From Rhodanobacter sp. (GTDB lineage: Bacteria; Pseudomonadota; Gammaproteobacteria; Xanthomonadales; Rhodanobacteraceae): a stretch of DNA of 64,000 bases. Shown piece by piece: positions 1 to 24,090 of the stretch; position 1 is the first letter of the stretch, and every line of letters starts with the position of its first letter. The DNA lies in assembly GCA_004298045.1 (NCBI GenBank), contig SCRM01000019.1:124001-188000 (forward strand), in the 5' to 3' direction. The notes below the pieces were generated by a model. The model worked only from the letters and a program-made list of their open reading frames with translations. It was not told the DNA's origin and searched no databases. A program made the position numbers and the translations under genes.

Positions 1-753
1 CTCGCGTGCCGAGGCAAAGCTGCGCCGCGTCGGGTGCGGCCGGTCACCAGGCAAGTCCAATACGCCCGGCGGCGCGGCATACTGCGCCACCCACCATGCC
101 TCGTCGGCGGCATCCGCGCCGCGCGCGGCCGGCTCGCCGAGCGCCAGGGCGTAATCGGCAAACGCCGGCGCTGACGCCAGCGTGGCGGTTGCCGCACCGG
201 CGCGCTGGGTATACAAGGCACCCAGCTCGCGCACGATCACCCACCACGACCAGCCATCGCACACCAGATGGTGGGCGCACAGCAGCAGCACGTGTTCGTC
301 CTCCCCCAGCTGCAGCAGCTCGGCACGCCAGAGCGGCCCATGTTCGAGGTCGAACGCGGTGGACACCATCGCCGTGCGGCGCGCGTCCAGCGCTGCGGCC
401 CGGGCGCTCGCATCCAGCGCGGAAAGGTCTGACCGGACTACCGCAAAGTGCAGCGCTTCCGCCACGCAAAACGTCTCGCCGTCCGGGCCGAAGGTGGCGC
501 GCAGGGAGTCGTGGCGATCCACCAGATCCTGCAGCGCATCCAGCAGTGCGTCGCGCCTGAGCGCGCCGCGCAGGGTGAGCGCCACCGCTTCGTTGTACGC
601 CAGCGACGCGGCGTCGCCCTGCTTGGCCGCCAGCCAGATCTCGCGTTGCGCCTCAGTGCTGGGTACCACGCGGGCCAGCGCCGGCGCCGCGAACGGGTCG
701 TAGTCGACCGCGGGCGCGCCGCTGCCGCGGGCGGGTTCGACCGGCGTGTTCAT
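1..753 (-). CDS. NRPS condensation-domain protein (N-terminal part, runs off window)
   Basis: This protein begins at an ATG overlapping the stop of the upstream NRPS/PKS gene (ATGA), and 251 codons are visible before the window edge. I translated it by hand. It contains a condensation domain: a C1-like PSTEAQREIW at residues 31-40 and the catalytic HHLVCDG at 161-167, matching HHxxxDG. In NRPSs this domain joins the upstream acyl or aminoacyl chain to the next aminoacyl-carrier protein. It directly follows an aminotransferase module, so it should accept the beta-amino intermediate made by the preceding protein. More modules probably lie to the left, outside the window. The family assignment is firm, but the substrate is unknown. 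Confidence 0.9.
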   Translation of the reverse strand, partial: MNTPVEPARGSGAPAVDYDPFAAPALARVVPSTEAQREIWLAAKQGDAASLAYNEAVALTLRGALRRDALLDALQDLVDRHDSLRATFGPDGETFCVAEALHFAVVRSDLSALDASARAAALDARRTAMVSTAFDLEHGPLWRAELLQLGEDEHVLLLCAHHLVCDGWSWWVIVRELGALYTQRAGAATATLASAPAFADYALALGEPAARGADAADEAWWVAQYAAPPGVLDLPGDRPHPTRRSFASARE

Positions 754-3700
754 GGTTCCACCTTGAGGTATTTGCCGGGCTGGGCGGGGTTGGGCACAAA
801 CCAGCACGGCGTGCCATCGGGCTCGCGTCCAAGCCGCGCGCCGGGCACCGGCGGGTGCGCGGCATCCATCGCGGTATGGGCAACAGCCGCCTTGCGCGGC
901 AGGAATTCGGCCTCCTGCAGCTCGACCACCGACGCCTTGAACGCCTGCGTGATGAGCCGGAAATCCGCCTCGCTGTGCGCGGTGGTGAAGAAACACGGAA
1001 AGTGGTCGAGGATGTGCACGCCGCGGCTGCGCATCATCGCGAACAGGAGATCCTGCAGCGGATGCTCTTCGAGAAACTGCGTGCGCCACAGCGAGGCGGA
1101 TTGCTTGATCGCGATCGGCGCCCCCACTTCCACGCAGAAGCCATTGAGCTCGTCGGCGAATGCCGCGGTGCGCGCGTTGAGCCGCTCCTGCAGCGCCGGG
1201 CCTTCGCGTTTCAGGTGTTCCAGCACAGCCTTCGCCGCGGCCAGCGCCAGCGGATGGCGCACGAAGGTGCCGGCGAAATAGGTGACGCCCACGGTGGGAA
1301 TCGAAGCATCCCCGTACTGCCACTGGCCGCCATCCAGCGCATCCATGTACTGCCGCTTGCCGGCGATCACGCCGATCTGATAACCGCCGCCGATCACCTT
1401 GCCGTAGGTGGCGAGATCGGCGTCGATGCCGAACAGGCCCTGGGTGCCGCGCGGGTGCGCGCGAAAGCCGGTGACGATCTCGTCGAAGATGCACAGCGCG
1501 CCCTGCTCGGCGGTGAGCCTGCGCACCTCGCGCAAGAACGCCACCGGCTGGAAATCCGGGCGCCGGCTCTGCACCGGCTCGATCAGCACGGCGGCCAGCT
1601 CGCCCGCATGCGCGGCAATCCAGGCGAGCGACTCCGGCGTGCCGTAGTCCAGCACGATCACGTGCTCGGCGGTGTTGCGCAAAATGCCCGGCGCCGCCGG
1701 CACCGCATGCAGCTTCCTGGTGCCGCGCACGATCACTTCGTCGACGATGCCGTGATACGAACCGCTGAACAGCACGATGGTTTCGCGCCCGGTCACCGTG
1801 CGCGCGATGCGGATCGCGCCCAGCACCGCCTCCGAGCCGGTATTGCACAGCGCCGCGCGCTCGTGCCCGGTGACTTCGCACACGAGGTCGGCCACCTCAC
1901 CGGCCAGCGGGTGCTGCGGGCCGATTTCGTAACCGAGGTCGAGCTGCCTGCGGATCGCCTCCAGCACGAAATCCGGCTGCCAGCCGAACAGGCTCATGCC
2001 AAAACCGTTCAACGCGTCGACGTAGTCGTTGCCGTCGAGGTCCCACAGGTGCGCGCCTTTCGAACGCTCCACCACCACCTGGTAGATGATCTCCTTGAGC
2101 AGCGGGCGGAAGCCGTTGACCACGCGCGGGTCGGCCATGCGCGCGCGATGCGCCTGGGTGTACGTCTTGGATTGCTGCGTGCGCGCCACATAGCGCGCGA
2201 TGAAGCGGTCCAGCAGGCCGCGCTGGCGCGGCGTGAGCGGATCGCGGTCGGTATGGATGCGCGCAATCGCGCCAAAGGCCTGCTTGACGTCGTAGTGCAC
2301 GTGCGCCGCACCAGGGTCGCCGGCAACGACCGGAGGCGCTACGACTGGCGCCGGGTTTGCGCTCGCTGCCGGAGCCGGCGCGGCGGGCACGGCCATCGGC
2401 GCCGCGCCGCCCAGCAACGCAAGCTGCTGCGCCATGAGCTGCATCTGCTGGGCGATCACCTGCTGCACGTAGCCACTTGGCGCGCCGGCCGCGATCGCCA
2501 GCGGCGCGGCAGCAGCGGCTACCGCCGGGACGACCGGCGTGGCAACAGCCGGCGGCGCGGCATCCGGCGGCAGCTTCGCATCCAGCAACGCGGCGAGGCT
2601 GGCGAAGCTCGCGGCGTCGCCCATCAGCTCGCGAAAACTCACCGGCGCGCCGAACGTTTTCGATACCTGCAATGCGAGCTGGGTGAGCATCAGGCTGTCC
2701 AGCCCCAACTCGATGAAGTTCGCGTTCGCGTCGGCGTCGGCGAGATCCAGCCCGGCCACATCCTCAAACGCGGACTTGAGCCTGGTGATCAGGGAAGCGG
2801 TGCGATCGGCGGCAGCAGCAACGGGCATGACGGTGTCTCCGGAAAACGGGGTGGCCGCGACCGCCGGTGGCGACGTCGATGCCGGCACGGCATCGACCCA
2901 ATGGCGTTCGCGCGCAAACGGATAGGTGGGCAGGCACAACCGCCGGCGTACGCGCCGACGATCCAGTGCGGCGAGGTCGACGGCGCAGCCGCGGCACCAC
3001 AGCACAGCCACGGCCCTGCGCACGGCTGCGGTTTCGTCGACCACGGTCGCATCCAACGACGCCACTGCGCTGCCGCCGTGCTGGCGCAGCAACGGCTGCT
3101 GGCGCACCACGGCGGTCAATACCGTGCGCGGGCCGACTTCCAGCACGACGCGGCCGGGGGTGGCGAGCACCGTCTGCGCCGCCGCGGAGAAACGCACCGG
3201 CGCGCGCAACTGGTTGGCCCAGTAATCGGCCGACTGCACCGTGGCGGGGTCCAGCAATTGCCCGGTCACGGTGGACACGATCGGCAGGCTCGGTACGTGG
3301 CGCGCCACCGCTTCGGCCGCGGCGTGGAACGGCGCCACCGCCGGTTCCATCAGGGCGGAATGGAACGCATGCGAGGTGTGCAGCGGGCGGCAGGCGATGC
3401 CGCGCGCCGCAAGGCTGGCGGCCAGTGCCGCGACGGCCTCGCTCGCGCCGGCGACGACACCGGCACCCGGCGCGTTTTCCACCGCCAGCGTGAGGTCGGC
3501 CGGCAACTGCGCGCGCAGTTCGTCGGCCGGCATGCGTACCGACAGCATCGCGCCGGGCGGTTGCGCCTGCATCAGGGCCGCACGCTGGATGACGAGCCGC
3601 ATCGCGTCTTCCGGCGTGAACACGCCGGCCAGCGCGGCCGCGGCGAATTCGCCGACGCTGTGGCCGACCAGCGCCACCGGTTCGGCACCGAGGCTGCGCC

Positions 3701-6700
3701 ACCATTGTGCCAGCGCGTATTCCATCGCAAAAATCGCCGGCTGCATCACCGCGGTGGGCAGCAGCGCATCAGGGTCGTCGCTCCACAGGCGTTCACGCAG
3801 GTCGAAACCCGCACTGCCCTGCGCCGCCGCCATGCAGGCATCGAACGCGTCGCGGAATACCGGCTCGGCGGCATGCAGCGCGCGCCCCATGCCAGGGTAG
3901 GTCGAACCCTGGCCGGGGAACGCGAACACGACCCCGCTCGCCGGAGCATCGCCCTGCTCGGGCACCGCCAGCGCGCGCAGCCGGGCCACCGCATCGGGCC
4001 CGTCCTGCGCCACCACGGCGACGCGCCGGGCAAATGCCTTGCGGCCAATGGCAAGCGTCCACGCCACGTCGGCCAGGTTCGCCTCGGGGTGGGTCTGCAA
4101 ATGCTCGGCGAGATTGGCGGCGGCCGCGCGCAAAGCCAGCGACGTGCGCGCCGACAGGCACAGCAGTTGCGGCCCGGCGGCCGGCTCGCTGGCCGCACGC
4201 AGCGGCGCCTCTTCCAGCACCACGTGCGCATTGGTGCCACCCACGCCGAACGCGCTGACGCCGGCGCGGCGCGGGACGTCGCGCCGCGGCCACGGCGTCG
4301 CGCGGTCATTGACGCAAAACGGCGAGGCAGCGAGATCGAATGCCGGGTTGGGCGTGTGGTAATGCAGGCTGGGCGGCAGCGTTTCGCGTTCGAGCGCCAG
4401 TGCGGTCTTGATCACGCTGGCAACGCCCGCGGCAATCACCATGTGGCCGACGTTGCTCTTGAGCGAGCCGATGCGGCAGTAGCCGGTGTCCGGCGTCTGC
4501 GCCTGGAACGCACGGGTCAGGCCTTCCAGCTCGATCGGGTCGCCAATCGGGGTGGCGGTACCGTGGCATTCGACGTAGTCGATGCTGCGCGCCGGCACGT
4601 CGGCGCGCGCCAGCGCCTTGGCGATGACCGCCGCCTGCCCGGCGCTGCTCGGCGCCATGAAACTCGCCTTGCCACCGCCGTCGTTGTTGACCGCGCCACC
4701 GCGGATTACGGCGATCACCGGGTCGCCATCGGCCAGCGCTTCCGACCAGCGCCGCAGCAGCACCACGCCGGCGCCGTCGCTGAACACCGTGCCGGCGGCC
4801 TGCGCATCGAAGCTGCGCGTGTGGCCATCCGGCGAAAGCATGCTGCCGGCCTGGGCCAGGTAACCGCTGCGCGGCGGACAGGTGATGGCGGCGCCGCCGG
4901 CCAGCGCCAGGTCGCAGCGGCCGCTGCGCAAGGCCTCGACCGCCTCGCAGATCGCCACCAGCGAGGTGGAGCACGCGGTATTCAGGCTGATCGCCGGACC
5001 GGTCAGGTCGAGCCGGTGGGCAATACGGGTGGCGACGTAGTCCTTCTCGTTCGCCAGCATGGTCTGGAACGCGCCGAAGCTCTCCACCAGTTCCGGGTGT
5101 GCGGCCAGCTGGTGTTGGAAATATGTGGCGTTGTGCATGCCGGCAAACACGCCGACCTCGGCATCATCCGCACCCGGCACGTGGCCGGCGCGCTCCATGC
5201 ACGCCCAGCACAATTCCAGCAGCACGCGCTGCTGCGGGTCGGTGAGCTCGGCCTCGCGCGGCGTCACGCCAAAAAACGCGGCGTCGAACTTGTCCACGTC
5301 GGCCAGCACGCCGCGCGCCGGCACGTAGGCCGGGTCGTTGCGCGTGGCCACGGGGATCGACGGATCGAGCTCGTCCGTCGCAAACCGCGTAATCGACTCG
5401 CGCCCGGCGCACAGGTTGTCCCAGAACGCCTCGACATCCGCCGCACCGGGAAAGCGCCCGGCCACGGCGATGATGGCGATCGGCTCCTCGGCGGATGCGT
5501 GGCGCTCCGCACGCGGCGCCGCCGGCGCGACAGCGGTCAGTGCACGCGCCAGGCCGGCTGGCGTCGGGTCGTCGAAAAACGCCGCGGGCGAGGGCGCGTC
5601 GCCATACGCGGCGCGGATCGCGGTGATCGCCTCAAGCGCCAGCAACGAGCTGCCGCCCAGCTCGAAAAAATGATCGTGCCGACCCACCGCGTCGAGCTCG
5701 AGCGTATCCGCAAACACGGCGCACAGCTTGGCTTCCAGCGCGTTGCGCGGCGCCGCGAACGGCTGCGCCAGCGCGGGCCGCTGGCGGTCCGGGGCCGGCA
5801 ACGCATGGCGATCGAGCTTGCCGTTGGCAGTGACCGGCAGGCGTTCGAGGCACACGATGCGCGCCGGCAGCATGAAATCGGGCAGCCGTTGCGCCAGCGC
5901 AGCGCGTACCGCTGGCGGCGACAGCGTCGACGCACCCACCACATAGGCCACGAGCTGTTTGCGTCCCGGGCGATCCTCGCGCACCAGCACCGCGCCGTCG
6001 CGCACGTCGGCCACGACGCGCAGCGCCGCTTCCACCTCGCCCGGCTCGATGCGGTGGCCGTTGATCTTCACCTGCGCGTCGAGGCGCCCGACAAACTCCA
6101 GCGCCCCATCCGGCAACCGGCGCACGCGATCGCCGGTGCGATAGCACCGCTCGTGGTGCTGCGGATCGAGGACGAAACGCTCCGCAGTCAGCGCCGGCTG
6201 ATGGCGGTAGCCGCGCGCCACGCCACCCCCGCCGATCAGGAGCTCGCCCACCGTGCCATCCGGCACTGCGGCACCCGCGGCATCGACGATGTGCAGCGTG
6301 GTGTCCGCGATCGGCCGGCCGATAGGAATGCTCGCGCCCTCGGCCGGCAGGTCGCGTGGGATGGCATAGGTGGCGGCGAACGTGGTGCATTCGGTCGGGC
6401 CGTAGCCGTTGATGATCGTCGTGCCCGGCAATGCCGCCAGCGCGCGCCGCACGTGCGCCACCGACAGTGCTTCCCCGCCGATCAGGAGCTGCCGCAACGG
6501 CGTCAGTTGCCGCACGTCCTCATCCACCACCGCGTTGAACAACGCGGCGGTCAGCCACGCGGTATCCACGCGTTGGCTTGCAAGGGTCGCGCCCAGCCCG
6601 TGCGCGGTCGGCACGCGCTCGGCGTGGATGACGCAGGTGCCGCCGTTGAGCAACGCGGCCCAGATCTCGAAGGTGGAGGCATCGAACCCCAGCGGCGCGG

Positions 6701-7316
6701 CGTGCAGCACCCGCGGCTGGCCGCCGAGCTGCACGTAATCCACACCGCGCACCAGCCGCAAGATGCCGCGATGGGTGATTTCCACACCCTTGGGCGTGCC
6801 AGTGGAGCCGGAGGTGAACATGACGTAGGCCAGCGCGTCGGCATTCGCCACCGGCGACGCAAGCCCGTTGTCCTCGCTGTCCAGCGCGGCCAATGCCGTG
6901 CATGCCACGCCGTCGGCACCGGGTACGCCGATGGTGAACGCCACCCCGGCATCGGCCAGCAGCTGGCGCAGGCGGGCGGGCGGGTCGCGTGGATCGAGCG
7001 GCAGGTACGCGGCGCCCGCCATGAGCACGCCAAGCAGCGCCACCAGCGCTTCCGGCGAGCGCTCCAGCAGCACGCCAACGAGGTCGCCGGCGGCCACGCC
7101 GTGGCGCCTGAGACCGGCCGCAACGCGCTGCGCGCGGCGGGCGAGTTCGCCGTAAGTCAGCGCACCGCCAAGCCAGGCCACGGCCTGCGCGTCGGGGTTG
7201 ACCGCCGCCACCCGGGCAAACGCGGCGTGCACGGTTGGCGCTTCGGCGTCCATGCCCGGCACTCCGGGCGCCGCCGGCAGCTCGTGCTCGGAAGCGGGCG
7301 CCATGGGATGGGTCAT
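750..7316 (-). CDS. Hybrid NRPS/PKS with integrated aminotransferase (A-PCP-KS-AT-ACP-AMT)
   Basis: This is a 2188-residue mega-enzyme. Its start is placed at the ATG overlapping the stop of the JmjC-like gene (ATGA); a longer upstream frame would run into that gene. Domains in order: adenylation (about 25-505, with FTSGSTGTPKG at 167-177, YGPTE at 305-309 and A10 lysine K500), PCP (Ser557 in LGGSS), ketosynthase (about 611-1040; Cys782, His918, His958), acyltransferase (about 1128-1440; GHSVGEF with Ser1220, and HAFH at 1316-1319, typical of malonyl-specific ATs), ACP (Ser1541), an Ala/Pro- and Gln-rich linker, and a class III PLP aminotransferase (about 1715-2145; Lys1973 in YGKVIGGG). No ketoreductase, dehydratase or enoylreductase is seen. 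The order resembles the KS-AT-ACP-AMT part of iturin/mycosubtilin synthetases, so a beta-keto intermediate is probably converted to a beta-amine. The substrate of the A domain was not decoded. Confidence 0.93.
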   Translation of the reverse strand: MTHPMAPASEHELPAAPGVPGMDAEAPTVHAAFARVAAVNPDAQAVAWLGGALTYGELARRAQRVAAGLRRHGVAAGDLVGVLLERSPEALVALLGVLMAGAAYLPLDPRDPPARLRQLLADAGVAFTIGVPGADGVACTALAALDSEDNGLASPVANADALAYVMFTSGSTGTPKGVEITHRGILRLVRGVDYVQLGGQPRVLHAAPLGFDASTFEIWAALLNGGTCVIHAERVPTAHGLGATLASQRVDTAWLTAALFNAVVDEDVRQLTPLRQLLIGGEALSVAHVRRALAALPGTTIINGYGPTECTTFAATYAIPRDLPAEGASIPIGRPIADTTLHIVDAAGAAVPDGTVGELLIGGGGVARGYRHQPALTAERFVLDPQHHERCYRTGDRVRRLPDGALEFVGRLDAQVKINGHRIEPGEVEAALRVVADVRDGAVLVREDRPGRKQLVAYVVGASTLSPPAVRAALAQRLPDFMLPARIVCLERLPVTANGKLDRHALPAPDRQRPALAQPFAAPRNALEAKLCAVFADTLELDAVGRHDHFFELGGSSLLALEAITAIRAAYGDAPSPAAFFDDPTPAGLARALTAVAPAAPRAERHASAEEPIAIIAVAGRFPGAADVEAFWDNLCAGRESITRFATDELDPSIPVATRNDPAYVPARGVLADVDKFDAAFFGVTPREAELTDPQQRVLLELCWACMERAGHVPGADDAEVGVFAGMHNATYFQHQLAAHPELVESFGAFQTMLANEKDYVATRIAHRLDLTGPAISLNTACSTSLVAICEAVEALRSGRCDLALAGGAAITCPPRSGYLAQAGSMLSPDGHTRSFDAQAAGTVFSDGAGVVLLRRWSEALADGDPVIAVIRGGAVNNDGGGKASFMAPSSAGQAAVIAKALARADVPARSIDYVECHGTATPIGDPIELEGLTRAFQAQTPDTGYCRIGSLKSNVGHMVIAAGVASVIKTALALERETLPPSLHYHTPNPAFDLAASPFCVNDRATPWPRRDVPRRAGVSAFGVGGTNAHVVLEEAPLRAASEPAAGPQLLCLSARTSLALRAAAANLAEHLQTHPEANLADVAWTLAIGRKAFARRVAVVAQDGPDAVARLRALAVPEQGDAPASGVVFAFPGQGSTYPGMGRALHAAEPVFRDAFDACMAAAQGSAGFDLRERLWSDDPDALLPTAVMQPAIFAMEYALAQWWRSLGAEPVALVGHSVGEFAAAALAGVFTPEDAMRLVIQRAALMQAQPPGAMLSVRMPADELRAQLPADLTLAVENAPGAGVVAGASEAVAALAASLAARGIACRPLHTSHAFHSALMEPAVAPFHAAAEAVARHVPSLPIVSTVTGQLLDPATVQSADYWANQLRAPVRFSAAAQTVLATPGRVVLEVGPRTVLTAVVRQQPLLRQHGGSAVASLDATVVDETAAVRRAVAVLWCRGCAVDLAALDRRRVRRRLCLPTYPFARERHWVDAVPASTSPPAVAATPFSGDTVMPVAAAADRTASLITRLKSAFEDVAGLDLADADANANFIELGLDSLMLTQLALQVSKTFGAPVSFRELMGDAASFASLAALLDAKLPPDAAPPAVATPVVPAVAAAAAPLAIAAGAPSGYVQQVIAQQMQLMAQQLALLGGAAPMAVPAAPAPAASANPAPVVAPPVVAGDPGAAHVHYDVKQAFGAIARIHTDRDPLTPRQRGLLDRFIARYVARTQQSKTYTQAHRARMADPRVVNGFRPLLKEIIYQVVVERSKGAHLWDLDGNDYVDALNGFGMSLFGWQPDFVLEAIRRQLDLGYEIGPQHPLAGEVADLVCEVTGHERAALCNTGSEAVLGAIRIARTVTGRETIVLFSGSYHGIVDEVIVRGTRKLHAVPAAPGILRNTAEHVIVLDYGTPESLAWIAAHAGELAAVLIEPVQSRRPDFQPVAFLREVRRLTAEQGALCIFDEIVTGFRAHPRGTQGLFGIDADLATYGKVIGGGYQIGVIAGKRQYMDALDGGQWQYGDASIPTVGVTYFAGTFVRHPLALAAAKAVLEHLKREGPALQERLNARTAAFADELNGFCVEVGAPIAIKQSASLWRTQFLEEHPLQDLLFAMMRSRGVHILDHFPCFFTTAHSEADFRLITQAFKASVVELQEAEFLPRKAAVAHTAMDAAHPPVPGARLGREPDGTPCWFVPNPAQPGKYLKVEP

Positions 7317-8242
7317 GACGGCACGCGCGGTGCTGGTGCATACGCCACGCGGTCCGACCGCGGCGGCAGCCCGCCGCCCAGGCGGGCCTGCCAGTGGCGC
7401 AGCACTCCCGCGGCACGAAAGCCGGCCAGCAACGCGGCATCCAGCACCGCGTTGCGTCCCACCGGCGGCGGCTCGACGCCCCATCCGCGTACCCGCTCGT
7501 GCGCCCGGTGCAGCAATGCATCACGCCGCGTGGCATCGGTGTAATAGGTAAAGCTGATCGTCACCGATGGCTCGTCGCCGTTTTCGACCAGGTGCGGACT
7601 GGTGGACGGCATGTAGGCGCCCATGCCCGGTTCGAGATGGAACACGTGGGCGCGCTCGCGCAGGGATTCCCGCCACTGCAGGCGGTCGCGGCTGTGGGTG
7701 GCGTGGAACAGGTCGCGCGAGGCTTCGCTGGCCGCTTCGGTGTCCTGCTTGTCCCACACGTACAGGGTCTTGCGGCCCTGCACCTGCAAGATGAAGTTGT
7801 GTTCCTTGTCGTAGTGGAACGGCGTGACGGTGTGCGGCGAGGTGAGAAAGATCCAGCCGGCGCGGTAGCCCATGCCGGGGTCGCGCTGCGCGATCCGCGG
7901 CGCGACGCCGTCGAGCACCGCATCCACCAAGGTGCGATACAGCCGATCGCCTTGCACATTGAGCAGTGACATCCACGCCTCGGCATGGGCGAGGTCGCCG
8001 AGCGTCGCCGCTGCGCCGGCACGGTTAGGATGCAGGCCGGGCGCGTCATTGAACGGGGTGCCCGCCGTCACCTGGTTGCTGTGCGTGCGCACGCTGTGCC
8101 GCTGCTCGAGTCGCTTGCCCAGCGCAATCAGCGCATCGCGTTGCAGCAACGGGTGCGCCATCAGGCGGTGGCGCACCGGCTGAACCTGCCACGGCGCAAA
8201 GGCACTCCAGTCAACTTCGATACCGCTCCAATCCTGTGCCAT
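7313..8242 (-). CDS. JmjC/cupin_8-like Fe(II)/2-oxoglutarate oxygenase
   Basis: This is a 309-residue protein. The start is the ATG giving MAQDWSG, because an AGGGGG element lies just upstream; an ATG 54 bases earlier has a poorly placed purine stretch. The centre holds an HxD iron-ligand motif (FHYDKEHN) and, further on, a distal histidine (SPHLVENG), both expected for cupin_8/JmjC-fold dioxygenases. Such enzymes hydroxylate amino-acid side chains, and in biosynthetic clusters often a carrier-bound residue. It is the first gene of the minus-strand operon and overlaps the NRPS/PKS gene by 4 bases, so it probably tailors that product. The substrate is inferred from context only. Confidence 0.82.
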   Translation of the reverse strand: MAQDWSGIEVDWSAFAPWQVQPVRHRLMAHPLLQRDALIALGKRLEQRHSVRTHSNQVTAGTPFNDAPGLHPNRAGAAATLGDLAHAEAWMSLLNVQGDRLYRTLVDAVLDGVAPRIAQRDPGMGYRAGWIFLTSPHTVTPFHYDKEHNFILQVQGRKTLYVWDKQDTEAASEASRDLFHATHSRDRLQWRESLRERAHVFHLEPGMGAYMPSTSPHLVENGDEPSVTISFTYYTDATRRDALLHRAHERVRGWGVEPPPVGRNAVLDAALLAGFRAAGVLRHWQARLGGGLPPRSDRVAYAPAPRVPS

Positions 8243-10535: not shown

Positions 10536-10805
10536 ATGTCCACCGAAATCACGGCCGTCAAGCCACGCGTACGCGATTACATCCTGCACAACCTGCTGTT
10601 CAGCGACGACGCCGCCGAACTGCCCGACGACACCTCGCTGCTCGACCGCGGCATCATCGACTCCACCGGCGTGCTCGAAGTGGTGATGTTCATCGAGGAA
10701 ACCTTCGGCCTGCACGTGAAGGCGAGCGACATGCTGCCGGAGAATTTCGACACCGTGAACGCCATCGCTGCCTTCGTCGAACGCCAACGGCAGGCCGTCG
10801 CGTGA
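10536..10805 (+). CDS. Free-standing acyl carrier protein
   Basis: This is an 89-residue acidic protein with the phosphopantetheine attachment motif GIIDSTGVLE, in which the serine is the modified residue. The length and the predicted four-helix layout match a discrete ACP/PCP. It lies 18 bases after the amidotransferase gene, and its stop overlaps the GTG start of the acyl-AMP ligase, so the ligase probably loads it. A role in fatty-acid synthesis is unlikely because no fab genes are nearby. Confidence 0.88.
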   Translation: MSTEITAVKPRVRDYILHNLLFSDDAAELPDDTSLLDRGIIDSTGVLEVVMFIEETFGLHVKASDMLPENFDTVNAIAAFVERQRQAVA

Positions 10806-12364: not shown

Positions 12365-12367
12365 CCG

Positions 12368-15415: not shown

Positions 15416-16597
15416 ATGCGCATCCTCTACCACCATCGCACCCAGGGACGGCAGGTCGAAGGTGTACACATTCGCGGCATCGTCGGCGCGCTGCGCGAAC
15501 TCGGGCACACGGTGGATATCCTTTCGTTTCCCGGCGCCGATCCGGAGCGCGAGCCGCCCGTCACGCCTGCCACCGGCGACGCACCGCGCAAGCGCAGCAT
15601 CGTTGCCTTGATGGCGCATGCCCCCGGCATCGCGTTCGAGTTTCTTGAGCTGGGCTACAACCTCGTCACCCGCTGGCGGGTGGGCCGGTACATCGCGCGC
15701 CAGCGGCCGCAGCTGGTGTACGAGCGCTATGCGTTGTTCCTGGGCGTCACCGTCTGGCTGTGCCGCCGTCGCGGCATCCCGATCGTGCTGGAAATCAACG
15801 ACTCGGCGTTGATGTCGCGGGTGCGTCCGCTGCACATGCAGCGCATCGCGCAACGCATCGAGGCATGGTGCTTCCGCAATGCCACCGGTCTGGTGTTCAT
15901 CTCCAGCTGGTTCCAGCAGCAGATCACGGCTGCCTACGGGAACGTGGCCCCCAGCGTGGTTTCGCCGAACGCCGCGGACTTGGCGCGCTTCGACCCCATG
16001 CGCCACGACCGGGCGACGCTGCGCGCCGCGAGGCACCTCGGCAACGGCGTGATTTGTGGCTACGTGGGGGCGTTCGTGTTCTGGCACGGCATTGCCGAGT
16101 TCGTGCGGCGCATCGCGCCCCGGCTCGACGAAGCACCGGGTTTGACGCTGCTGCTGGTCGGCGATGGCGTCGAGCTGCCAGCCGTGCGCGAGGCGATCGC
16201 CCAAGCCGGGCTGGAGCACCGCGTTTTATTGCCCGGCCGCGTGTCGCACACCGACATCCCGTCGTGGATTGCGTGCATGGACTACGCCCTGCTGGCCGAC
16301 TCCAACCAGTACGGCTCCCCGATGAAGCTGTTCGAGTTGATGGCGATGGGCGTCGGCGTAGTGGTGCCCGATTACGAACCGATCCGCGAAGTGGTGACGC
16401 CCGGCGTGGATGGCTGGCTGTTCCCGCGCAAGAACTTCGACGCCTGCGTGGATCAGGTACTCGCCCTGGCAGCGCGCCCCGACGAGCTGCAACGGGTCGG
16501 CGCCGAGGCGCGCGCCACCATCGTGCGCGCCCATCAATGGCGCAACAACGCCGAGCAACTGCTGTCGCTGGTACCCGGCAAGGACGCTGCGCCATGA
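15416..16597 (+). CDS. Family 4 glycosyltransferase
   Basis: This is a 393-residue GT-B enzyme. The N-terminal half starts with MRILYHHRT and contains a glycine-rich donor loop. The C-terminal Rossmann half has CGYVGAFVFWHGI, LLVGDG and GSPMKLFELMAMG, with the E-x7-E-like nucleotide-sugar site typical of GT4. It should transfer a sugar from a nucleotide donor to a lipid-linked acceptor on the cytoplasmic face. An 85-base gap separates it from the GNAT gene, and its stop overlaps the next start, so it remains in the same transcription unit. Confidence 0.85.
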   Translation: MRILYHHRTQGRQVEGVHIRGIVGALRELGHTVDILSFPGADPEREPPVTPATGDAPRKRSIVALMAHAPGIAFEFLELGYNLVTRWRVGRYIARQRPQLVYERYALFLGVTVWLCRRRGIPIVLEINDSALMSRVRPLHMQRIAQRIEAWCFRNATGLVFISSWFQQQITAAYGNVAPSVVSPNAADLARFDPMRHDRATLRAARHLGNGVICGYVGAFVFWHGIAEFVRRIAPRLDEAPGLTLLLVGDGVELPAVREAIAQAGLEHRVLLPGRVSHTDIPSWIACMDYALLADSNQYGSPMKLFELMAMGVGVVVPDYEPIREVVTPGVDGWLFPRKNFDACVDQVLALAARPDELQRVGAEARATIVRAHQWRNNAEQLLSLVPGKDAAP

Positions 16598-17115
16598 GCG
16601 TGCGCGCCGACCTGCACGCGAAGGCGCAGTGGTGCTACGGCAGCACGCGTCCCGCCACGCTGCTCAAGACCATCGCGACCGACGGCAGTTTCGCGATGGT
16701 CTGCTACCGCGCCATGGCATGGTGCGAGCGTCGCCGGCTGGCGCCGCTGGCGATGATCCTCAACAAGCTCAACGCGGTACTGGGCCAATGCATCATCGGC
16801 CGCGGCGCAACGTTCGGCGACGGTTTCGTGCTGGTGCACAGCCAGGGTGTCGTCATCAACGGCAGCGTGCGCGGCGGGCAACACGTCTACGTGGAACACC
16901 AGGTCACCATCGGCGCCGAAAAAGGCCGCTCGCCGATCATCGGCAACCATGTCTTCATCGGCGCCGGCGCCAAGATCGTCGGCGCGATCACCATCGGCGA
17001 CCACGCCCGCATCGGCGCCAATGCCGTCGTGGTGCATGATGTCCCTGCGGGCGCCACCGTGGGCGGCATCCCGGCCCGCATCCTCAGGCAGCGTGATCCG
17101 CAGACCGGCGAATGA
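16594..17115 (+). CDS. Left-handed beta-helix O-acetyltransferase (CysE/WcaB-like)
   Basis: This 173-residue protein starts at ATGA overlap with the glycosyltransferase. From about residue 65 it shows imperfect hexapeptide repeats (IIGRGATFGDG, VTIGAEKG, VFIGAGAKIVGAITIG, RIGANAVV) ending in GGIPARIL, the left-handed beta-helix of serine/sugar O-acetyltransferases. At 173 residues it is shorter than CysE (about 270), and it resembles polysaccharide acetyltransferases. In this locus it most likely O-acetylates an EPS sugar. It is the last gene of the operon and is convergent, with an 18-base gap, to the lyase-like gene. Confidence 0.82.
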   Translation: MSVRADLHAKAQWCYGSTRPATLLKTIATDGSFAMVCYRAMAWCERRRLAPLAMILNKLNAVLGQCIIGRGATFGDGFVLVHSQGVVINGSVRGGQHVYVEHQVTIGAEKGRSPIIGNHVFIGAGAKIVGAITIGDHARIGANAVVVHDVPAGATVGGIPARILRQRDPQTGE

Positions 17116-17133
17116 TCCCGGGCGACCGGGTGC

Positions 17134-20037
17134 TCAGGGGTTGTATGGCCTGGGGTAGCCCGCGACCGGCAAGTCCGACACCGGTGCGGTCAGTTTCACC
17201 GGGGCCTGCTGTTGCACGGCGCCACCGGCGTCCACGTAGAAATCGAGTATGCCCGCGGTGCTGCTCATGAAGGTGCCACCCTGGCTCACGGTGACGGTCA
17301 GGTTGCTGCCGCTGACACTAGTGGTGATGTTGTAGCCAACCCCCGGCGCCAGCTCGGTGATGAGGTGGTGGGTTTGCGACGCCGGCACCACGTAGCTGAT
17401 CGGGCCGGCCACCGCGGTACCGGCCGCCACGCCACTCTGCAGCACCACGTTGACGCCGGCACTCGAAGTCAGCCTTACACCAACCATGTTGCCCTGGGTC
17501 GCCGTAACCGGCGCCGCTGCGGCGACGGCGGCAGGCGTTGCCGCCGTGTCGAATACGGTCAACCACGTCTGGCTGGCACCCGCGCTGCCCGGGCGCTCCT
17601 GCACCTGCCAGACCTTGGTGGGGTTGCTCGTGGGGTACAACGCAATCGTGGTCAGCGCGGCGTTGACCGGGTAAACCGTGGTCATTGCACCGACATACAC
17701 GCCGTTGTAGGTGATATCCAACCGGTTCTGCCCACTGGCCGCTGCGCCGGCAACGGGCATCGCCGGGAAGTGCCACGCGAGAAACTGGTCGTGGCTGCTG
17801 CTGGAATTACTGGTGCGGTCGTACACGAGAAAGAGATTGGGCCGCAGGTAAACGATCTGCCGCGTCCAGCCGGTCACCGCCAGGCCAGCCTTGAACGGCC
17901 GGTACATGTCCGCCAGCCCGGTGGCCTGCACGTACACGTAATCCGGCTTGTCCTCGAACAAGGCGACTTTCGTGCTGGCGGAAGCAGGCGTGACCATGCC
18001 TTGCCCATAAGGCTCGACCAGGGTGCCGCCACTCATGTTGCGCACGTAGTAGATGTTGTAGATCTGCTTGTTGCCCTGATACACCGTACCAGTGAAAGCG
18101 CCATACAAGTCGTTGTAGAGCAGGTTTTCATCCGAACTGCCATTCGGCTCGTGCACCATCCAGCCCCAGGTATTGACCAGCAGTGGCGCATTGCCGCGCA
18201 CGATCGCAATGCTGCCTTCGTCAAACCCTTCCTCGCCCTGATTGGGGTTGTTCACGTAGGGGGCTGCACGAAACGACATCCAGCTCGCTGTGGTCGTCCA
18301 GTCGGACCGTGCGGCCACCATGCCCATGCCGCCGGCAAGGTACGCCAGCGGCAGCGAGGTGACCGGCGCCGTCGGCAACCGGGTGGCGTCGTCGAGAAAT
18401 GCGAGCCACGCCGGTGCGGGGTTGTAATTCGACGTCGCGGCACTGACGTTGTTCATGTATTGGTGAAACACCGCGACCTTGTGCGAGCCCCAGTAGTTGA
18501 GCGTCCCCAGCACCTGTTGAAAGAAGCTCATCCACGGCGTGCCAACGGGAGGCGTCGGGTTGCCATTCGAATGATTCATGTCGCGATCGTCGAAGTACGC
18601 CCGCGACGGCCAGGTAAGGTGCATCGCGTAATCCGCGTTTTCCAGCGGGAAAGTGAATGCCGGCTGCGTGTGCACCAGATCCGCCCCGGTGGCCGTTTTC
18701 ACTTCGCGCATCGGCAAACTCAGGTTGAGGATGGCTGGCGGCCCGTAATTGCCAAAACCCTCGGGCCAACCGCCGCCGGCCAGGTACTGGCTGTAATACG
18801 GCTGCACTTTCTGCGCAAACTGGTTGCTGTACCAATCATTCCATTCGGCCGGCGCATTGGGGTTGTCGCCGAATGTTGCCATGGCAATCACTGCCTTGGC
18901 GTGGAAATAGCCGGCGTAGTAATTGCTTTGCGGGTTCGGGTAGGCGAAGTAGGCGCAACCGGTAGACGTTTCCCACGGCACCAGCCACGAGTTGGCCGTG
19001 GTGTATACCTGCGCACGCTGCGCGGCTGTCAGCAGGTCGTACAGCCAGTCGTAGCCGAGCCCGAACCCCACGCCGTAGTTGCGGATGCCGTAGCCGGAAT
19101 CCGTGCACGGGTCCTGCCCCTGGTTGCCGCTGCCGGTCGAATACGGCGTGGACATCTTCATGAGGATGTCCACGCCCTTGGCGCCATACGTCGCCGCCGC
19201 GCTCGGGTTGCTCGCCTTGAGGGCCTGGTAGCACATGCCCTCGGCCAACACGGCGGGCAGGTACTCTTCCCCTTGATACCCGGACCCCAAGTTCGGCGGA
19301 TTCGGATACGCCGTACCGGTCGGATAGTTCACTTGCCCGCCGATGAAGCGATCGCAGTTGGCCTTGAGTGCCTGCCACGCCGGGGTGTTGGCAGCCACGT
19401 CCGCCTGCATTCTGGCTATCGTCGCAGGGTCGAGCAACAGCCGTGGGTGCCCCGCGATGACCGTCGGCAGCGCCGCCGCCGGCTGCACGGCAAACGGCAC
19501 CGGGGCAAACGCACCCTGCGCGAGCGGAACCGCCGAACCGGCGTTGCCGGTTGCGACCGCAACGGTCAGCGGCGGGACAAGGCAGGGCGACGGGCGCGCC
19601 CGGGGAGCCTCCAGCGACGAGACCGCAATAGCCGAGCCCACCCGGTAGCCGCAATCTTCCTGTGGGGTCGACACCACGGCAGGACGGCTCTCGAATCCTG
19701 CCGGCACCTCGCGCGGCCGCGCGAAGGTCATCGGCGCACCCGCAACAAAAGGGTCCTGCACGAGCCAGGGCGGCAGGGGGCTGGGGATGACGACCCGACC
19801 AACCGCGCCGCCTTCGGACGCGTCAAGCTCCGCGTCGCTCGGCACGGGCGCGGCAACCGGCGCTCGCGTCGCCCCGACAAAGTGCGTCAGGGCGATGCGC
19901 ACCTGAGGCACCGCGACACTCGCTGCCGCCAGCACCGTCGACACCAACAGGGCGATCATGCCCAAGGCGCGCAGGCGCCGCCTGCGTGGCGTGCGTTCCG
20001 CAGACACCGGCTCGGTCGCGTGGATGTCGTCTGCCAT
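17134..20037 (-). CDS. Membrane-anchored heparinase II/III-like polysaccharide lyase
   Basis: This is a 967-residue protein with a cytoplasmic Arg-rich start (TPRRRRLR) and one hydrophobic segment at about 25-45, so it is tethered to the inner membrane with a large periplasmic part. After a low-complexity spacer, HPRLLLDPATIARMQADV begins a region resembling the alpha/alpha-toroid of alginate lyase/heparinase II/III proteins, with aromatic-rich segments such as GYDWLYDL and HFHAKA-like YAGYFHAKA. The C-terminal part looks like a beta-sandwich. It probably cleaves or edits the polysaccharide made by this locus, as EPS loci often encode a cognate lyase. I did not identify the catalytic residues with certainty. 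Confidence 0.65.
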   Translation of the reverse strand: MADDIHATEPVSAERTPRRRRLRALGMIALLVSTVLAAASVAVPQVRIALTHFVGATRAPVAAPVPSDAELDASEGGAVGRVVIPSPLPPWLVQDPFVAGAPMTFARPREVPAGFESRPAVVSTPQEDCGYRVGSAIAVSSLEAPRARPSPCLVPPLTVAVATGNAGSAVPLAQGAFAPVPFAVQPAAALPTVIAGHPRLLLDPATIARMQADVAANTPAWQALKANCDRFIGGQVNYPTGTAYPNPPNLGSGYQGEEYLPAVLAEGMCYQALKASNPSAAATYGAKGVDILMKMSTPYSTGSGNQGQDPCTDSGYGIRNYGVGFGLGYDWLYDLLTAAQRAQVYTTANSWLVPWETSTGCAYFAYPNPQSNYYAGYFHAKAVIAMATFGDNPNAPAEWNDWYSNQFAQKVQPYYSQYLAGGGWPEGFGNYGPPAILNLSLPMREVKTATGADLVHTQPAFTFPLENADYAMHLTWPSRAYFDDRDMNHSNGNPTPPVGTPWMSFFQQVLGTLNYWGSHKVAVFHQYMNNVSAATSNYNPAPAWLAFLDDATRLPTAPVTSLPLAYLAGGMGMVAARSDWTTTASWMSFRAAPYVNNPNQGEEGFDEGSIAIVRGNAPLLVNTWGWMVHEPNGSSDENLLYNDLYGAFTGTVYQGNKQIYNIYYVRNMSGGTLVEPYGQGMVTPASASTKVALFEDKPDYVYVQATGLADMYRPFKAGLAVTGWTRQIVYLRPNLFLVYDRTSNSSSSHDQFLAWHFPAMPVAGAAASGQNRLDITYNGVYVGAMTTVYPVNAALTTIALYPTSNPTKVWQVQERPGSAGASQTWLTVFDTAATPAAVAAAAPVTATQGNMVGVRLTSSAGVNVVLQSGVAAGTAVAGPISYVVPASQTHHLITELAPGVGYNITTSVSGSNLTVTVSQGGTFMSSTAGILDFYVDAGGAVQQQAPVKLTAPVSDLPVAGYPRPYNP

Positions 20038-20208: not shown

Positions 20209-21594
20209 TCACCGAGCGCCGCGTCCAAATACCACCACTTCCAGCGTCTGGATCAGGATCAGCAGATCAAACACGAGATTGTGGTTCTTGACGTAGTAAA
20301 GGTCGTATTTGAGCTTTTCCGCAGCATCTTCTTCGGAGGCGCCGTAGGGGTAGCGCAGTTGGGCCCAGCCGGCGAGGCCGGGCTTCAAGGTGTGGCGCAG
20401 GCTGTAGTAGTCGATCTTCTTGGTCAGGTTGGCGACAAACTGCGGACGCTCCGGGCGTGGGCCGATGAAGCTCATTTCGCCCTTGAGCACGTTCCACAAT
20501 TGCGGTAGTTCGTCCAGGCGAACCTTGCGGATGAAGCGACCCACGCGGGTCACGCGGTTGTCGTGCTTGGCCGCCCAGCGTGCAATGCCATCGCGCTCGG
20601 CGTCGGTGCGCATGCTGCGGAACTTGATGAGCTGGAATGTCTTGCCGCGCACGCCGACGCGCTCCTGCCGGTACAGCACGGGTTGCCCCGCACCCGACTC
20701 GATGCGGATGGCCAGCGCGGTCAGCAGCATCAACGGCCAGGTCAGCGCCAGCACCAGTACAGCGGCGGCAAGATCGAACCCGCGCTTGGTCAGCTTGCGC
20801 ATGGGTGTGCTGTCGAAGCCGCCTGAATACACCAGCCACGAGGGGTGGGTAAGCGAAAGCTGCACGCGGCCGGATTCGCGCTCGAAGAACGTGGTGAGGT
20901 CAGTGACGGCAATGCCGAGCTGACGGCATTGCAGCAGCTCTTCCATCAGCAGGTTGCCGCGGCGGTCGTCCACGCCAACGATGATCTCGTCGATGTGTTG
21001 CGCCTCGGCCCACGCATCGAGCGGCGAGTCCAGACTCAGCAGGCGGTCTGCCGGCACCTCGACCGGCTCGCCGTCGCGCGCGACAAAACCGACCACGACG
21101 AAACCGCGCCGATCCGATTGGCGCCGCAGGCGGCTATGGACTTGCGAAGCGCGCACGCCCGCACCCAGCACGAGGATGCGGCGCTTGAACGCTTCCACTT
21201 CCACCAGGCGAATGAACGCCGCACGGAACGCGGTGACGGCCAGGAAACCAAGCACCAGCGCAATGCCCAGCACACCGCGCCCGACAAATGTCTGCGGCAC
21301 CACATAAAACGCGACGGCCAGGCCCAGCGCACCGAGCAGGAAACCAATGGCCTGCCGCGCGAGCAGGCCAAACCAGGTCGTGCGCATGTGCAGCTGGTAC
21401 TGCCCCATCGCGGCAAGGCCGAGCATGATCATGCCGGCGAACATCAGCGAGCGTTCGGGCAGGTGTCCCAAGGCGTTGATGCTGCCAAAACGCAGCCAGG
21501 TGGCCATGTTCAGCGCGACGCCCAGGCACAACAACTCACCAAGCGCCAGCAGCAACAACCAGCGGGTGGACTGCCGATGCAGAGAACGCCACAT
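20209..21594 (-). CDS. Undecaprenyl-phosphate sugar transferase (initiating EPS glycosyltransferase)
   Basis: This is a 461-residue polytopic polyprenyl glycosylphosphotransferase. The start is the ATG giving MWRSLHRQ, which follows a strong GGGAAGGGAAG ribosome-binding site. It has four or five N-terminal membrane segments (to about 130), a CoA-binding-like Rossmann segment (RRILVLGAGVRASQ), a further membrane helix (about 265-290), and the C-terminal sugar-transferase domain with KFRSMRTDAE, KVRLDELPQLWNVLKG and SFIGPRPERP. It transfers the first sugar-1-phosphate to undecaprenyl phosphate. It resembles the family associated with exosortase-A (EpsH1) EPS systems. A CRP-like site lies upstream. 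Confidence 0.9.
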   Translation of the reverse strand: MWRSLHRQSTRWLLLLALGELLCLGVALNMATWLRFGSINALGHLPERSLMFAGMIMLGLAAMGQYQLHMRTTWFGLLARQAIGFLLGALGLAVAFYVVPQTFVGRGVLGIALVLGFLAVTAFRAAFIRLVEVEAFKRRILVLGAGVRASQVHSRLRRQSDRRGFVVVGFVARDGEPVEVPADRLLSLDSPLDAWAEAQHIDEIIVGVDDRRGNLLMEELLQCRQLGIAVTDLTTFFERESGRVQLSLTHPSWLVYSGGFDSTPMRKLTKRGFDLAAAVLVLALTWPLMLLTALAIRIESGAGQPVLYRQERVGVRGKTFQLIKFRSMRTDAERDGIARWAAKHDNRVTRVGRFIRKVRLDELPQLWNVLKGEMSFIGPRPERPQFVANLTKKIDYYSLRHTLKPGLAGWAQLRYPYGASEEDAAEKLKYDLYYVKNHNLVFDLLILIQTLEVVVFGRGAR

Positions 21595-21710: not shown

Positions 21711-21757
21711 TTCCTAACACATATTTCACGACAACTGATTCGTCGTGGCCCGTGGTC

Positions 21758-22813
21758 TCACGAACCGGGTTGGCTGGCGATAAAGCCGAGATACCACGGC
21801 ATGGCAACGTCCAGCCCCTGCAGCAGGGTGTGGGTGGGCGCGTAGCCCAGGCGGGCGTGCGCGCGGCTGATGTCGGCCAGCGAGTGGCGCACGTCGCCGG
21901 GGCGGAAGTCGCGGTACACCGCCGGCAGGTCGTAGTGCACGTCGGCGGCGGCGAGGCCATCGACCAGCCCGGCAAAAAGCTCGTTCAGGCTGGTGCGCTG
22001 GCCCACCGCCACGTTGTAGACGAGGTTGCGCTGCTCCTCGTCCGCCAGCGCCGCGAGCAGGTTGGCCTGCACCGCGTTGGCGACGAAGCAGAAATCGCGC
22101 GTGGTTTCGCCGTCGCCGTTGATGTAGACGTGCTCGCGCTTGATCATCGTCGCCAGCCACTGCGGAATCACCGCCGCATAGGCGCCGTCCGGGTCCTGGC
22201 GCGGACCGAACACGTTGAAGTAGCGCAGGCCGATGGCCTTGAAGCCGTAGCAGCGGGTGAACACGTCGGCGTAGATTTCGTCGAGCAGCTTGGTCACCGC
22301 ATAAGGCGACAGCGCATGGCCGATCTTGTCCTCCACCTTGGGCAGGCTCGGCTCGTCGCCGTAGGTGGAACTGGACGCCGCATAGGTGAAGGTTTGCACC
22401 TTGGCGTCGCGCGCGGCCACCAGCATGTTGAGGAACCCGGTGGCGTTCGCGGCGTGGGTGGCGAGCGGGTCTTCGATCGAGCGCGGCACCGAGCCGAGCG
22501 CTGCCTGATGCAGCACGTAGTGCACGTCGCGGCAGGCTGCCTGGCAGTCTTCCAGCTTGCGGATGTCGTGCTCGAGGAAGGTGAAGCGCGACCAGGCCTC
22601 GGGCCCGACCAGGCGTTCCACCTCGTCCAGGTTGCGCTGGTAGCCGGTGGCGAAGTTGTCCAGCCCGACCACGGTCTGTCCGAGTGCGAGCAGCGCCTCG
22701 ACCAGGTTGGAGCCGATGAAGCCGGCGGCGCCGGTCACCAGCCACTTGTGTCCGGCCTGCGCGCGCACGCGTTCCTGCACGGTTTGCGGCAGCAGGGTGT
22801 CGATCGTTGCCAT
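21758..22813 (-). CDS. tviC: NAD-dependent UDP-GlcNAc(A) C4-epimerase (TviC/WbpP-like)
   Basis: This is a 351-residue extended SDR. The start is the ATG in TGATG, overlapping the dehydrogenase stop by one base, with GGGAGG 5 bases upstream. It has a [10 protein letters not shown] Rossmann motif, a catalytic SSS..YAVTK segment (AASSSTYG and [11 protein letters not shown]) and [14 protein letters not shown], matching the TviC/VipB/WbpP group of UDP-N-acetylglucosamine (uronic acid) 4-epimerases. Together with the adjacent dehydrogenase it should make UDP-GalNAcA or a related uronic acid for the exopolysaccharide. Confidence 0.88.
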
Positions 22814-24090
22814 CACAGCCTCCCGTCCACCGCGTCGCGCGGCAGCACGTACTTAACGTCGTACACCACCGACTGCGGCTTGCCGAACGTGCGCACGCCA
22901 GCGGCGCCCAGCTCCACGAACTGCTGGTGCGCCACCGCGATGACGACGGCGTCGTAGTCGCCCGCTTTGGGGGCGGCGATCGGCGTAATGCCGTATTCGT
23001 GCTTGGCCGCCGCCGCATCCACCCACGGGTCGTACACGTCCACCGCGAGGTTGTAGTCGGTGAGCGTGTGCACGATGTCGACCACCCGCGTGTTGCGCAG
23101 GTCCGGGCAGTTCTCCTTGAACGCGAGGCCGAGCATCAGCACCTTCGCATGCACCGGGTTGATGCCCTTGCGCAGCATCAGGCGCACGACCTCGTCGGCC
23201 ACGTACGGGCCCATGCCGTCGTTGGTGCGGCGACCGGCGAGGATCACGTCGGGGTGATGGCCGACCTCCTGCGCCTTGTGGGTGAGGTAATACGGATCGA
23301 CGCTGATGCAGTGCCCGCCCACCAGGCCCGGGCGGAACGGCAGGAAGTTCCACTTGGTGCCGGCCGCCTCCAGCACTTCCAGGGTGTCGATGCCGAGTTT
23401 GTTGAACAACTTGGCAAGGTCGTTGACCAGCGCGATGTTCAGGTCGCGCTGGGTGTTCTCGATCACCTTGGCGGCCTCGGCCACCTTGATGCTGCTGGCC
23501 TTGTGGGTGCCGGCGGTGATGATCGAGGCGTACAGCGCATTGACGAACTCGGCCACTTCCGGCGTGGAGCCGGAGGTGACCTTGCGGATGCCGGTGACGC
23601 GGTGCTGCTTGTCGCCGGGGTTGATCCGCTCCGGGCTGTAGCCGGCGAAGAAATCCCGGTTGAAGACCAGGCCGGAACCCTTGGCCAGGATCGGCACGCA
23701 CACCTCTTCGGTGCAGCCCGGATACACGGTGGATTCGTACACCACGATGTCGCCCTTTTTCAGCACCTTCGCCAGCGTCTCGCTGGCCTTGACCAGCGGC
23801 GTCAGATCGGGGCGCTTGGCCGTGTCGATCGGGGTCGGCACGGTGACGATGTAGAAGTTTGCGCCGCGCAGGTCCTCCAGTGCGGAGGAGAACCGCAACC
23901 GCGGTGCCGCGCCGAGTTCGGCAGAGGTGACTTCCAGCGTGCGATCCCTGCCCGCGCGCAACTCGCCGACGCGCGCCTCGTTGATGTCGAAGCCGAGCGT
24001 GTCGTAGTGCTTGCCGTATTCCACCGCGAGCGGCAGGCCGACGTAGCCCAGGCCAACGATCGCGATCTTGGTGTCTTGCAGATTTCGCAT
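22813..24090 (-). CDS. tviB: UDP-N-acetyl-hexosamine 6-dehydrogenase (TviB/WbpA-like)
   Basis: This 425-residue nucleotide-sugar dehydrogenase has an N-terminal Rossmann motif ([18 protein letters not shown]), a central domain containing YESTVYPGC, and the catalytic cysteine in [12 protein letters not shown]. It oxidises the C6 hydroxyl of UDP-HexNAc twice to give the uronic acid. The sequence fits the TviB/WbpO-like branch rather than UDP-glucose dehydrogenase. It is the first gene of the minus-strand pair, and a CRP-like site lies 181 bases upstream. Confidence 0.9.

Follow-up and report, generated by a model that had tools for sequence, protein, structure and literature searches.

The 64,000-nucleotide stretch of Rhodanobacter sp. 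DNA analysed here (the window; C6:124001-188000 of a 3.26-Mb draft genome that is 95.9% complete) carries a hybrid nonribosomal peptide synthetase/polyketide synthase (NRPS/PKS) assembly line inside an operon of an exopolysaccharide (EPS) locus; this neighbourhood recurs in related genomes, and none of the genomes with the line has exosortase or FemAB. Because the line and the EPS genes stay together across genomes, the line probably supplies the EPS with a tailor-made amino-acid unit, and we consider it an even chance that this would be a short amino-acyl unit for a TviB/TviC-supplied aminouronic-acid EPS. An earlier interpretation of the sequence (the original prediction) had suggested a link of this kind. 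All the genes that it named were present in the orientations it gave, but its gene set was incomplete, and a JmjC gene, a gene for a 967-aa protein and the upstream EPS genes are added here.

The assembly line is encoded on the minus strand by the following genes, where A stands for adenylation, T for carrier, KS for ketosynthase, AT for acyltransferase and C for condensation domains.

7313-8242, minus strand: JmjC/cupin-type putative oxygenase, heading the NRPS operon (PF13621 30.7 bits, cut-off 27.4; PF08007 26.9 bits, cut-off 22)
750-7316, minus strand: NRPS/PKS protein, A-T-KS-AT-T-aminotransferase (Pfam and domain map; start set where an ATGA is shared with the JmjC stop)
1-753, minus strand: 5' part of the second NRPS, C-A-T-C-T, ~1629 aa, running on for ~4.1 kb upstream of the window

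Overlaps of 4 bases connect the JmjC stop with the NRPS/PKS start, the NRPS/PKS stop with the ATG of the second NRPS, and the stop of the second NRPS with the GTG start of a deacetylase gene. In this genome, the line is therefore co-directional with, and overlaps, a polysaccharide gene. The overlap between the NRPS/PKS and NRPS genes was retained in 70 of 79 locus pairs. The next open reading frame (ORF) followed ≤100 bases behind the NRPS in 67 of 74 cases, irrespective of what that ORF encodes, and this count was not used as evidence. What the original prediction had called a condensation-domain protein was present but truncated by the window edge; with 40 kb of upstream sequence added (negative coordinates below), it proved to be the C-A-T-C-T NRPS, and in the second NRPS (L085:7864-12750, minus strand; 1628 aa with the first Met omitted) Pfam recognised two Condensation, one AMP-binding and two PP-binding domains.

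Conservation of this neighbourhood was examined in 233 genomes of the family, using the aminotransferase region as the NRPS/PKS query (E ≤ 1e-60). An NRPS/PKS relative was found in 104 of these, the window's own genome included, and the EPS chain-length gene in 134 (E ≤ 1e-40; 130 of them above its cut-off). Both were present in 97 genomes, NRPS/PKS only in 7, EPS only in 37 and neither in 92, such that the chain-length gene accompanied the line in 97/104 genomes vs 37/129 genomes without it. Among close relatives, NRPS/PKS genes that regularly lack EPS genes, which the original prediction would have counted against itself, were thus not what was found. The seven genomes with NRPS/PKS only comprised four weak relatives (G084, G090, G225 and G230; 43-47% identity) and three fragmented drafts (G005, G114 and G220; ~220, 510 and 270 contigs, respectively). 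Since the genomes are related and the Fisher test assumes independence, the co-occurrence P values are descriptive, and a within-genus count lessens this dependence but does not remove it. The two genes lay on the same contig in 78 of the 97 genomes, with a median distance of 29 kb, and 74 of these 78 pairs were within 60 kb and spanned 17 genera, the conserved neighbourhood that the original prediction had proposed to look for. A chance neighbour was rejected as an explanation, given the recurrence of this arrangement.

We examined 100 of the 104 hit regions by tblastn (leaving out the window itself, G139, G140 and G220), and 76 of these stretches contained a polysaccharide gene of the EPS locus, such as the deacetylase, polymerase, transferase or TviB gene; in 7 more the sole hit was a relative of hydrolase 1 or 2, and in 3 more one of the 967-aa protein. 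A relative of the window's JmjC protein, which itself gave a weak sequence match to JMJD5 chains, was found in 41 of the 100. In other families of the order, the line occurred in 14 more genomes (54/299 in all), and among the 13 that were fetched, a relative of EpsB, TviB or EpsA was nearby in 10 and one of hydrolase 1 or 2 in 12.

Genomes with the line were free of exosortase and FemAB. Exosortase (PF09721, E ≤ 1e-10) was found in 20 of 233 genomes, all of which belong to the 37 that have EPS but lack NRPS/PKS; it was absent from the 104 that carry the line. FemAB (TIGR03019, E ≤ 1e-15) was found in 22, namely the 20 exosortase genomes together with G006 and G014, and again in none with NRPS/PKS; the exosortase and FemAB counts are not mutually independent. 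Within a single genus (g23), 12 of 27 EPS genomes had NRPS/PKS and 13 had exosortase, with zero overlap. The window's genome had no match to PF09721 and, at E ≤ 1e-15, none to TIGR03019, and a classical exosortase system was accordingly rejected for this locus. The alternation fits, but does not prove, an assembly line that fills the role of FemAB and exosortase. We tentatively suggest, with less than even confidence, that one EPS chassis exists in two exclusive forms: one with exosortase and FemAB, and one in which a thioesterase-less NRPS/PKS would make a vicinal-diamino-acyl-glycine unit and pass it straight to an amino sugar in the growing polymer, replacing the exosortase branch.

The EPS locus itself lies about half inside the window, the other part reaching ~19 kb upstream, and it looks like a complete Wzx/Wzy-type locus in which the flippase assignment is weak by profile. 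Profiles identified the initiating transferase, polymerase, co-polymerase (TIGR03007) and export protein. From -19340, the plus strand encodes, in order, an export protein (TIGR03027 207.5 bits, cut-off 180), a chain-length protein (TIGR03007 371.5 bits, cut-off 278.9), a tyrosine kinase (TIGR03018), an outer-membrane barrel (TIGR03016) and two alpha/beta hydrolases (TIGR03101 and TIGR03100), the last four being under their cut-offs. From 8242, in transcription order, the minus strand encodes the JmjC/cupin protein, the NRPS/PKS, the NRPS, a polysaccharide deacetylase (PF01522), a polymerase (Wzy_C, PF04932 64.3 bits, cut-off 31.7), a flippase-like protein, two GT4 glycosyltransferases, a second deacetylase, an unannotated protein and a GT2 glycosyltransferase. 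The flippase-like protein heads the following list; the other entries are the remaining genes of the locus, which are convergent with an amidotransferase operon described below.

-6747 to -8303, minus strand: flippase-like protein, 518 aa, weak matches only (NF050818 36.4 bits, cut-off 700)
17134-20037, minus strand: 967-aa protein without a Pfam or NCBIfam match
20209-21594, minus strand: initiating polyprenyl glycosyl-1-phosphate transferase, EpsB_2 (TIGR03013 556 bits, cut-off 393)
21758-22810, minus strand: TviC-like UDP-sugar 4-epimerase (NF011728 455 bits, under the cut-off of 760)
22813-24090, minus strand: TviB, UDP-N-acetylglucosamine 6-dehydrogenase (NF011729 638 bits, cut-off 592)

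The first protein of the line had the order A-T-KS-AT-T-aminotransferase in 74 of 101 loci (the window and 100 others), while the second was C-A-T-C-A-T in 62 and C-A-T-C-T in 13; a second type of line, with a fused KS-AT-T-aminotransferase-C-A-T protein, was found in 11. The start module was an amino-acid adenylation domain (TIGR01733 399.9 bits, cut-off 317) and not an acyl ligase, and for this reason a lipopeptide start module was rejected and the lipopeptide-like product of the original prediction finds no support in a line of this kind. In Pfam scans of both proteins of the window's line and two relatives (L181 and L130), no release domain (thioesterase or reductase) was found. Active sites were conserved: in alignments, the Cys/His/His of the KS domain, the aminotransferase Lys (which we take to be the pyridoxal phosphate (PLP) lysine) and the Ser of the terminal carrier were unchanged in 76/76 proteins. 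By text patterns, the GHSxGE and HAFH motifs of the AT domain were present in 76/76, the HHxxxDG motif in 80/80 first and 79/80 second C domains, and the motif of the first NRPS carrier in 71/80 (by pattern only). These patterns are stricter than the alignment, which recovered KS and carrier motifs that had escaped them in some proteins. The HAFH motif presumably indicates the use of malonyl-CoA, as it usually does. The specificity pocket of the first A domain was DAFWLGGTF in the window, and DALWLGGTF or DAFWLGGTF in 64 of 83 proteins, and that of the first NRPS A domain in the window was DILQ-GLVW; by the Stachelhaus tables we tentatively take these to be codes for valine and glycine, respectively. 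A related line in a different family of the class has, adjoining its NRPS, an ORF (L226:2152-2853, minus strand) that by eye resembles a phosphopantetheinyl transferase, with a relative of hydrolase 1 farther along.

The terminal A domain of the line has decayed or disappeared in most loci. In 76 complete NRPSs, the second A domain was absent in 13 (the window included), had no core motif in 39, two of three core motifs in 1 and all three in 23; it was thus decayed or gone in 52/76, with the C and carrier domains alongside it intact. All 24 second A domains that kept the first motif had a glycine-like pocket (DILQ), and the leading Asp was absent from all 39 decayed ones. The first A domain was likewise glycine-like (DILQ or DIMQ) in 13/13 NRPSs without a second A domain and, at a minimum, in 37 of the 39 with a decayed one, and in the two NRPSs whose first A domain had a DVWH pocket, which we take to be serine-like, the second was intact. 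The simplest reading of these few contrasts is that the first glycine A domain would load both carriers.

From this domain order, the following route can be predicted. The first A domain would load an amino acid (valine-like pocket), which the KS and AT domains would extend with malonate, and the aminotransferase would convert the beta-keto to a beta-amino group, giving a 3,4-diamino acid. The line has a PLP-lysine aminotransferase after KS-AT-acyl carrier protein (ACP), as expected for mycosubtilin-type beta-amination. The next module would add glycine, and the last (C-T), which has lost its own A domain, would probably be charged in trans, one possibility being a second glycine from the surviving glycine A domain; the JmjC protein may hydroxylate a residue. 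The absence of a thioesterase, the overlap with the deacetylase gene and the adjacent polymerase and flippase genes together suggest that the last carrier passes its peptidyl chain to a sugar with a free amino group in the lipid-linked repeat. Such a hand-over would be the simplest route because the window's line has no thioesterase. The acceptor amine could come from the deacetylase encoded by the overlapping gene, and the two XrtA-type hydrolases may act in release or editing.

Several observations weigh against decoration of the EPS by the line. No gene of the locus encodes an evident peptidyl-to-sugar transferase, and the tandem-GNAT protein of the window belongs to an operon whose marker 84 of the 104 NRPS/PKS genomes lack. 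The nearest solved A domains, those of linear gramicidin synthase, differ in their pocket residues, so the valine and glycine codes are not confirmed. As for linkage, four same-contig pairs were far apart (79, 91, 401 and 467 kb), and 37 EPS genomes had no NRPS/PKS, which is therefore not required for EPS as such. A total of 14 of the 100 stretches had no EPS gene. Of these, L139 and L156 have EPS genes just beyond the stretch, L131 and L198 (apparently the same records as L009 and L010) carry the 967-aa gene and the transferase across the AsnB gene, L145, L211 and L214 lie on contigs of only 4-11 kb, and L123 sits 44 kb from the chain-length gene; L180 (G005), of which 16.9 kb of a 32-kb contig was seen, was unexplained, and L206-L210 are distant relatives with another architecture. 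More distant relatives often had no EPS neighbours: within the family, this applied to G084, G090, G225, G229 and G230 (43-49% identity), and outside the order, EPS markers were absent from 7 of 12 stretches (those 7 at 42-51% identity).

The main rival to polysaccharide decoration is a free, co-regulated metabolite, that is, a small secreted peptide (a biofilm signal, metallophore or antimicrobial) that is located with the EPS genes through a shared biofilm state and never bound to sugar. We regard this as possible but unlikely. The domain order is that of an ordinary hybrid assembly line, co-regulation would also give linkage, and papers using antiSMASH describe hybrid NRPS/PKS clusters without a known product in the family, as in Luteibacter mycovicinus (PMC11165876), Dyella jiangningensis (PMC6082245) and Dyella terrae (PMC9169046), where the text concerned makes no tie of the cluster to EPS; these clusters may be the same line. 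However, the window's line has no thioesterase, there is no gene for transport, regulation or resistance between the JmjC and polymerase genes, which abut or overlap there, and a free peptide leaves unexplained both the position in an EPS operon and the exclusion of exosortase and FemAB.

The strict alternation with exosortase and FemAB on the same EPS chassis would also be expected if the peptide were an anchor that ties the EPS or a lipid precursor to a protein or to the outer membrane, as exosortase/FemAB loci do for PEP-CTERM proteins. Aminoacyl-sugar linkers are indeed protein attachment points in Porphyromonas gingivalis and Tannerella forsythia, according to PMC7468200, but the alternation may simply mark two lineages of the locus, and no transpeptidase-like gene was noticed among its annotated genes; we consider an anchor improbable. 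That a mobile or inherited biosynthetic cluster landed in a variable EPS island and was carried along is very improbable, as linkage held over 17 genera, the NRPS gene overlaps an EPS gene in the window's operon and the active sites are invariant, even though 37 of 134 EPS-marker genomes have no NRPS/PKS.

In the open-access library searched, we found no described system that links an NRPS to EPS. The locus has the chassis of XrtA/PEP-CTERM loci: its TIGR03027, TIGR03007 and TIGR03013 matches are all above the curated cut-offs, with relatives of the hydrolases, ligase, amidotransferase, tyrosine kinase and glycosyltransferases under theirs, but the window's genome has the NRPS/PKS operon in place of exosortase and FemAB. 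With the Vi capsule it shares a TviB above the equivalog cut-off, whereas its other genes are of the XrtA type, together with NRPS/PKS; a Vi capsule was rejected on account of the TviC-like protein, which is under its cut-off. The class-III aminotransferase fused behind KS-AT-ACP is reminiscent of the mycosubtilin and iturin synthases, and the solved chains listed for this region were those of mycosubtilin synthase (6kfu and 6kfm, the best being 6kfu at E 3e-121). The mycosubtilin start module is a fatty-acyl ligase, whereas the window's line starts from an amino acid, stops one or two modules later, lacks a thioesterase and lies inside an EPS operon. In Dlt-type D-alanylation, an adenylation enzyme and a carrier protein decorate a surface polymer with a single amino acid by means of a dedicated membrane transferase; the window's line shares the adenylation and carrier chemistry but is a modular NRPS/PKS, and no Dlt-type transferase was noticed.

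A precedent for the chemistry is found in the Bacteroidetes P. gingivalis and T. forsythia, whose sortase linking sugars have an N-seryl or N-glycyl group on an aminouronic sugar; the group is set by a GNAT/FemAB-like enzyme, and an AsnB-type enzyme of P. gingivalis makes a uronamide (PMC7468200). The authors speculate likewise for exosortase loci. Compared with VimA, VimE and WbpS of Porphyromonas and Tannerella by enzyme type, the window also has AsnB-type, GNAT and TviB/TviC genes, but those systems use a single GNAT/FemAB-like enzyme and one amino acid, whereas the window's line would make a longer unit (PMC7468200 for Porphyromonas and Tannerella). An EpsB2-type transferase gene was mutated in several floc-deficient Aquincola mutants, as described in PMC9850573.

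If EPS decoration is correct, a modular assembly line would here serve to decorate a polysaccharide, a class of orphan hybrid clusters of the order would have been misfiled as secondary metabolism and would belong to cell-surface chemistry, and one should look for the product in the EPS instead of the broth. What exosortase loci attach proteins to is an open question on which decoration would also shed light, since in the 233 genomes one and the same EPS chassis has either exosortase/FemAB or NRPS/PKS, and never both.

Divergent from the NRPS operon, the plus strand from 8577 carries an operon with a different distribution.

8577-10517, plus strand: AsnB-type glutamine amidotransferase (PF00733, GATase_7; TIGR03108 441.5 bits, under the cut-off of 816.9)
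10536-10805, plus strand: stand-alone ACP (NCBIfam ACP models, every one under its cut-off)
10802-12364, plus strand: AMP-forming acyl ligase (PF00501 291 bits; TIGR03098, exosortase-A-associated ligase, 409.5 bits, cut-off 592)
12374-13261, plus strand: PrmC/HemK-like methyltransferase (TIGR00536 154.3 bits, cut-off 115.5)
13283-14269, plus strand: NadE-like PP-loop amide ligase (NF002048 465.9 bits, cut-off 313)
14266-15330, plus strand: tandem-GNAT acyltransferase (Acetyltransf_9/_1)
15416-16597, plus strand: GT4 glycosyltransferase (Glyco_trans_1_4 76.8 bits)
16594-17115, plus strand: hexapeptide-repeat (serine-acetyltransferase-like) acetyltransferase (PF00132 38.8 bits)

The methyltransferase and PP-loop ligase of the original prediction are thereby assigned to families, both above cut-off. 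Among the relatives listed for the AsnB protein, the closest come from Rhodanobacter. This amidotransferase-ACP-ligase operon is separable from the NRPS/PKS-EPS unit, and the original prediction, which joined both halves, is supported in part: the NadE-like marker was present in 28 of 233 genomes (E ≤ 1e-60), only 20 of which were among the 104 with NRPS/PKS, and some AsnB operons had no EPS neighbours. The operon lay among genes judged by eye to be non-EPS in two Rhodanobacter loci (L006 and L007) and in L023 and L026 (the latter from Dyella), and it was common in loci of Lysobacter, Luteimonas and Pseudoxanthomonas, mostly without NRPS/PKS in the stretch. The line may sit just past the AsnB stretch, as G828, apparently the same record as L022, has the line. 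In L006 and L007, a deacetylase gene is divergent from the AsnB-ACP-ligase-methyltransferase-NadE operon. A GNAT relative (33-35% identity) adjoins JmjC in four loci of the window's genus (L136-L139).

The AlphaFold model of the tandem-GNAT protein (predicted local distance difference test, pLDDT, 92.3) resembled Eis-type and N-myristoyl transferases, with whole-length matches to 2hv2 (Z 22.3) and Eis2 (Z 21.2), and no FemX-like fold was among the 50 matches listed; on this model, the protein could act as an acyl transferase, though not one shared by NRPS/PKS genomes in general. Relatives of the 967-aa protein were kept in related loci (53-57% identity in five), and it is possibly a candidate for a new polysaccharide lyase family; its structure model was too poor to read (pLDDT 34), so no claim is made about its fold.

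Across the window, Rfam gave no match and a tRNA scan found none, while a promoter and terminator scan found no promoter-like sites and fewer terminators than in shuffled sequences. Elsewhere in the window, an Alginate_exp porin adjoins a metallo-beta-lactamase-fold protein (45094-47868, minus strand), with a divergent LysR regulator at 48021-49274. Between 58000 and 64000, the GC content falls to 0.57-0.59 and the ORFs are small; Pfam scans of four left three unmatched and identified one Pyr_excise relative, and this part of the window is possibly acquired DNA.

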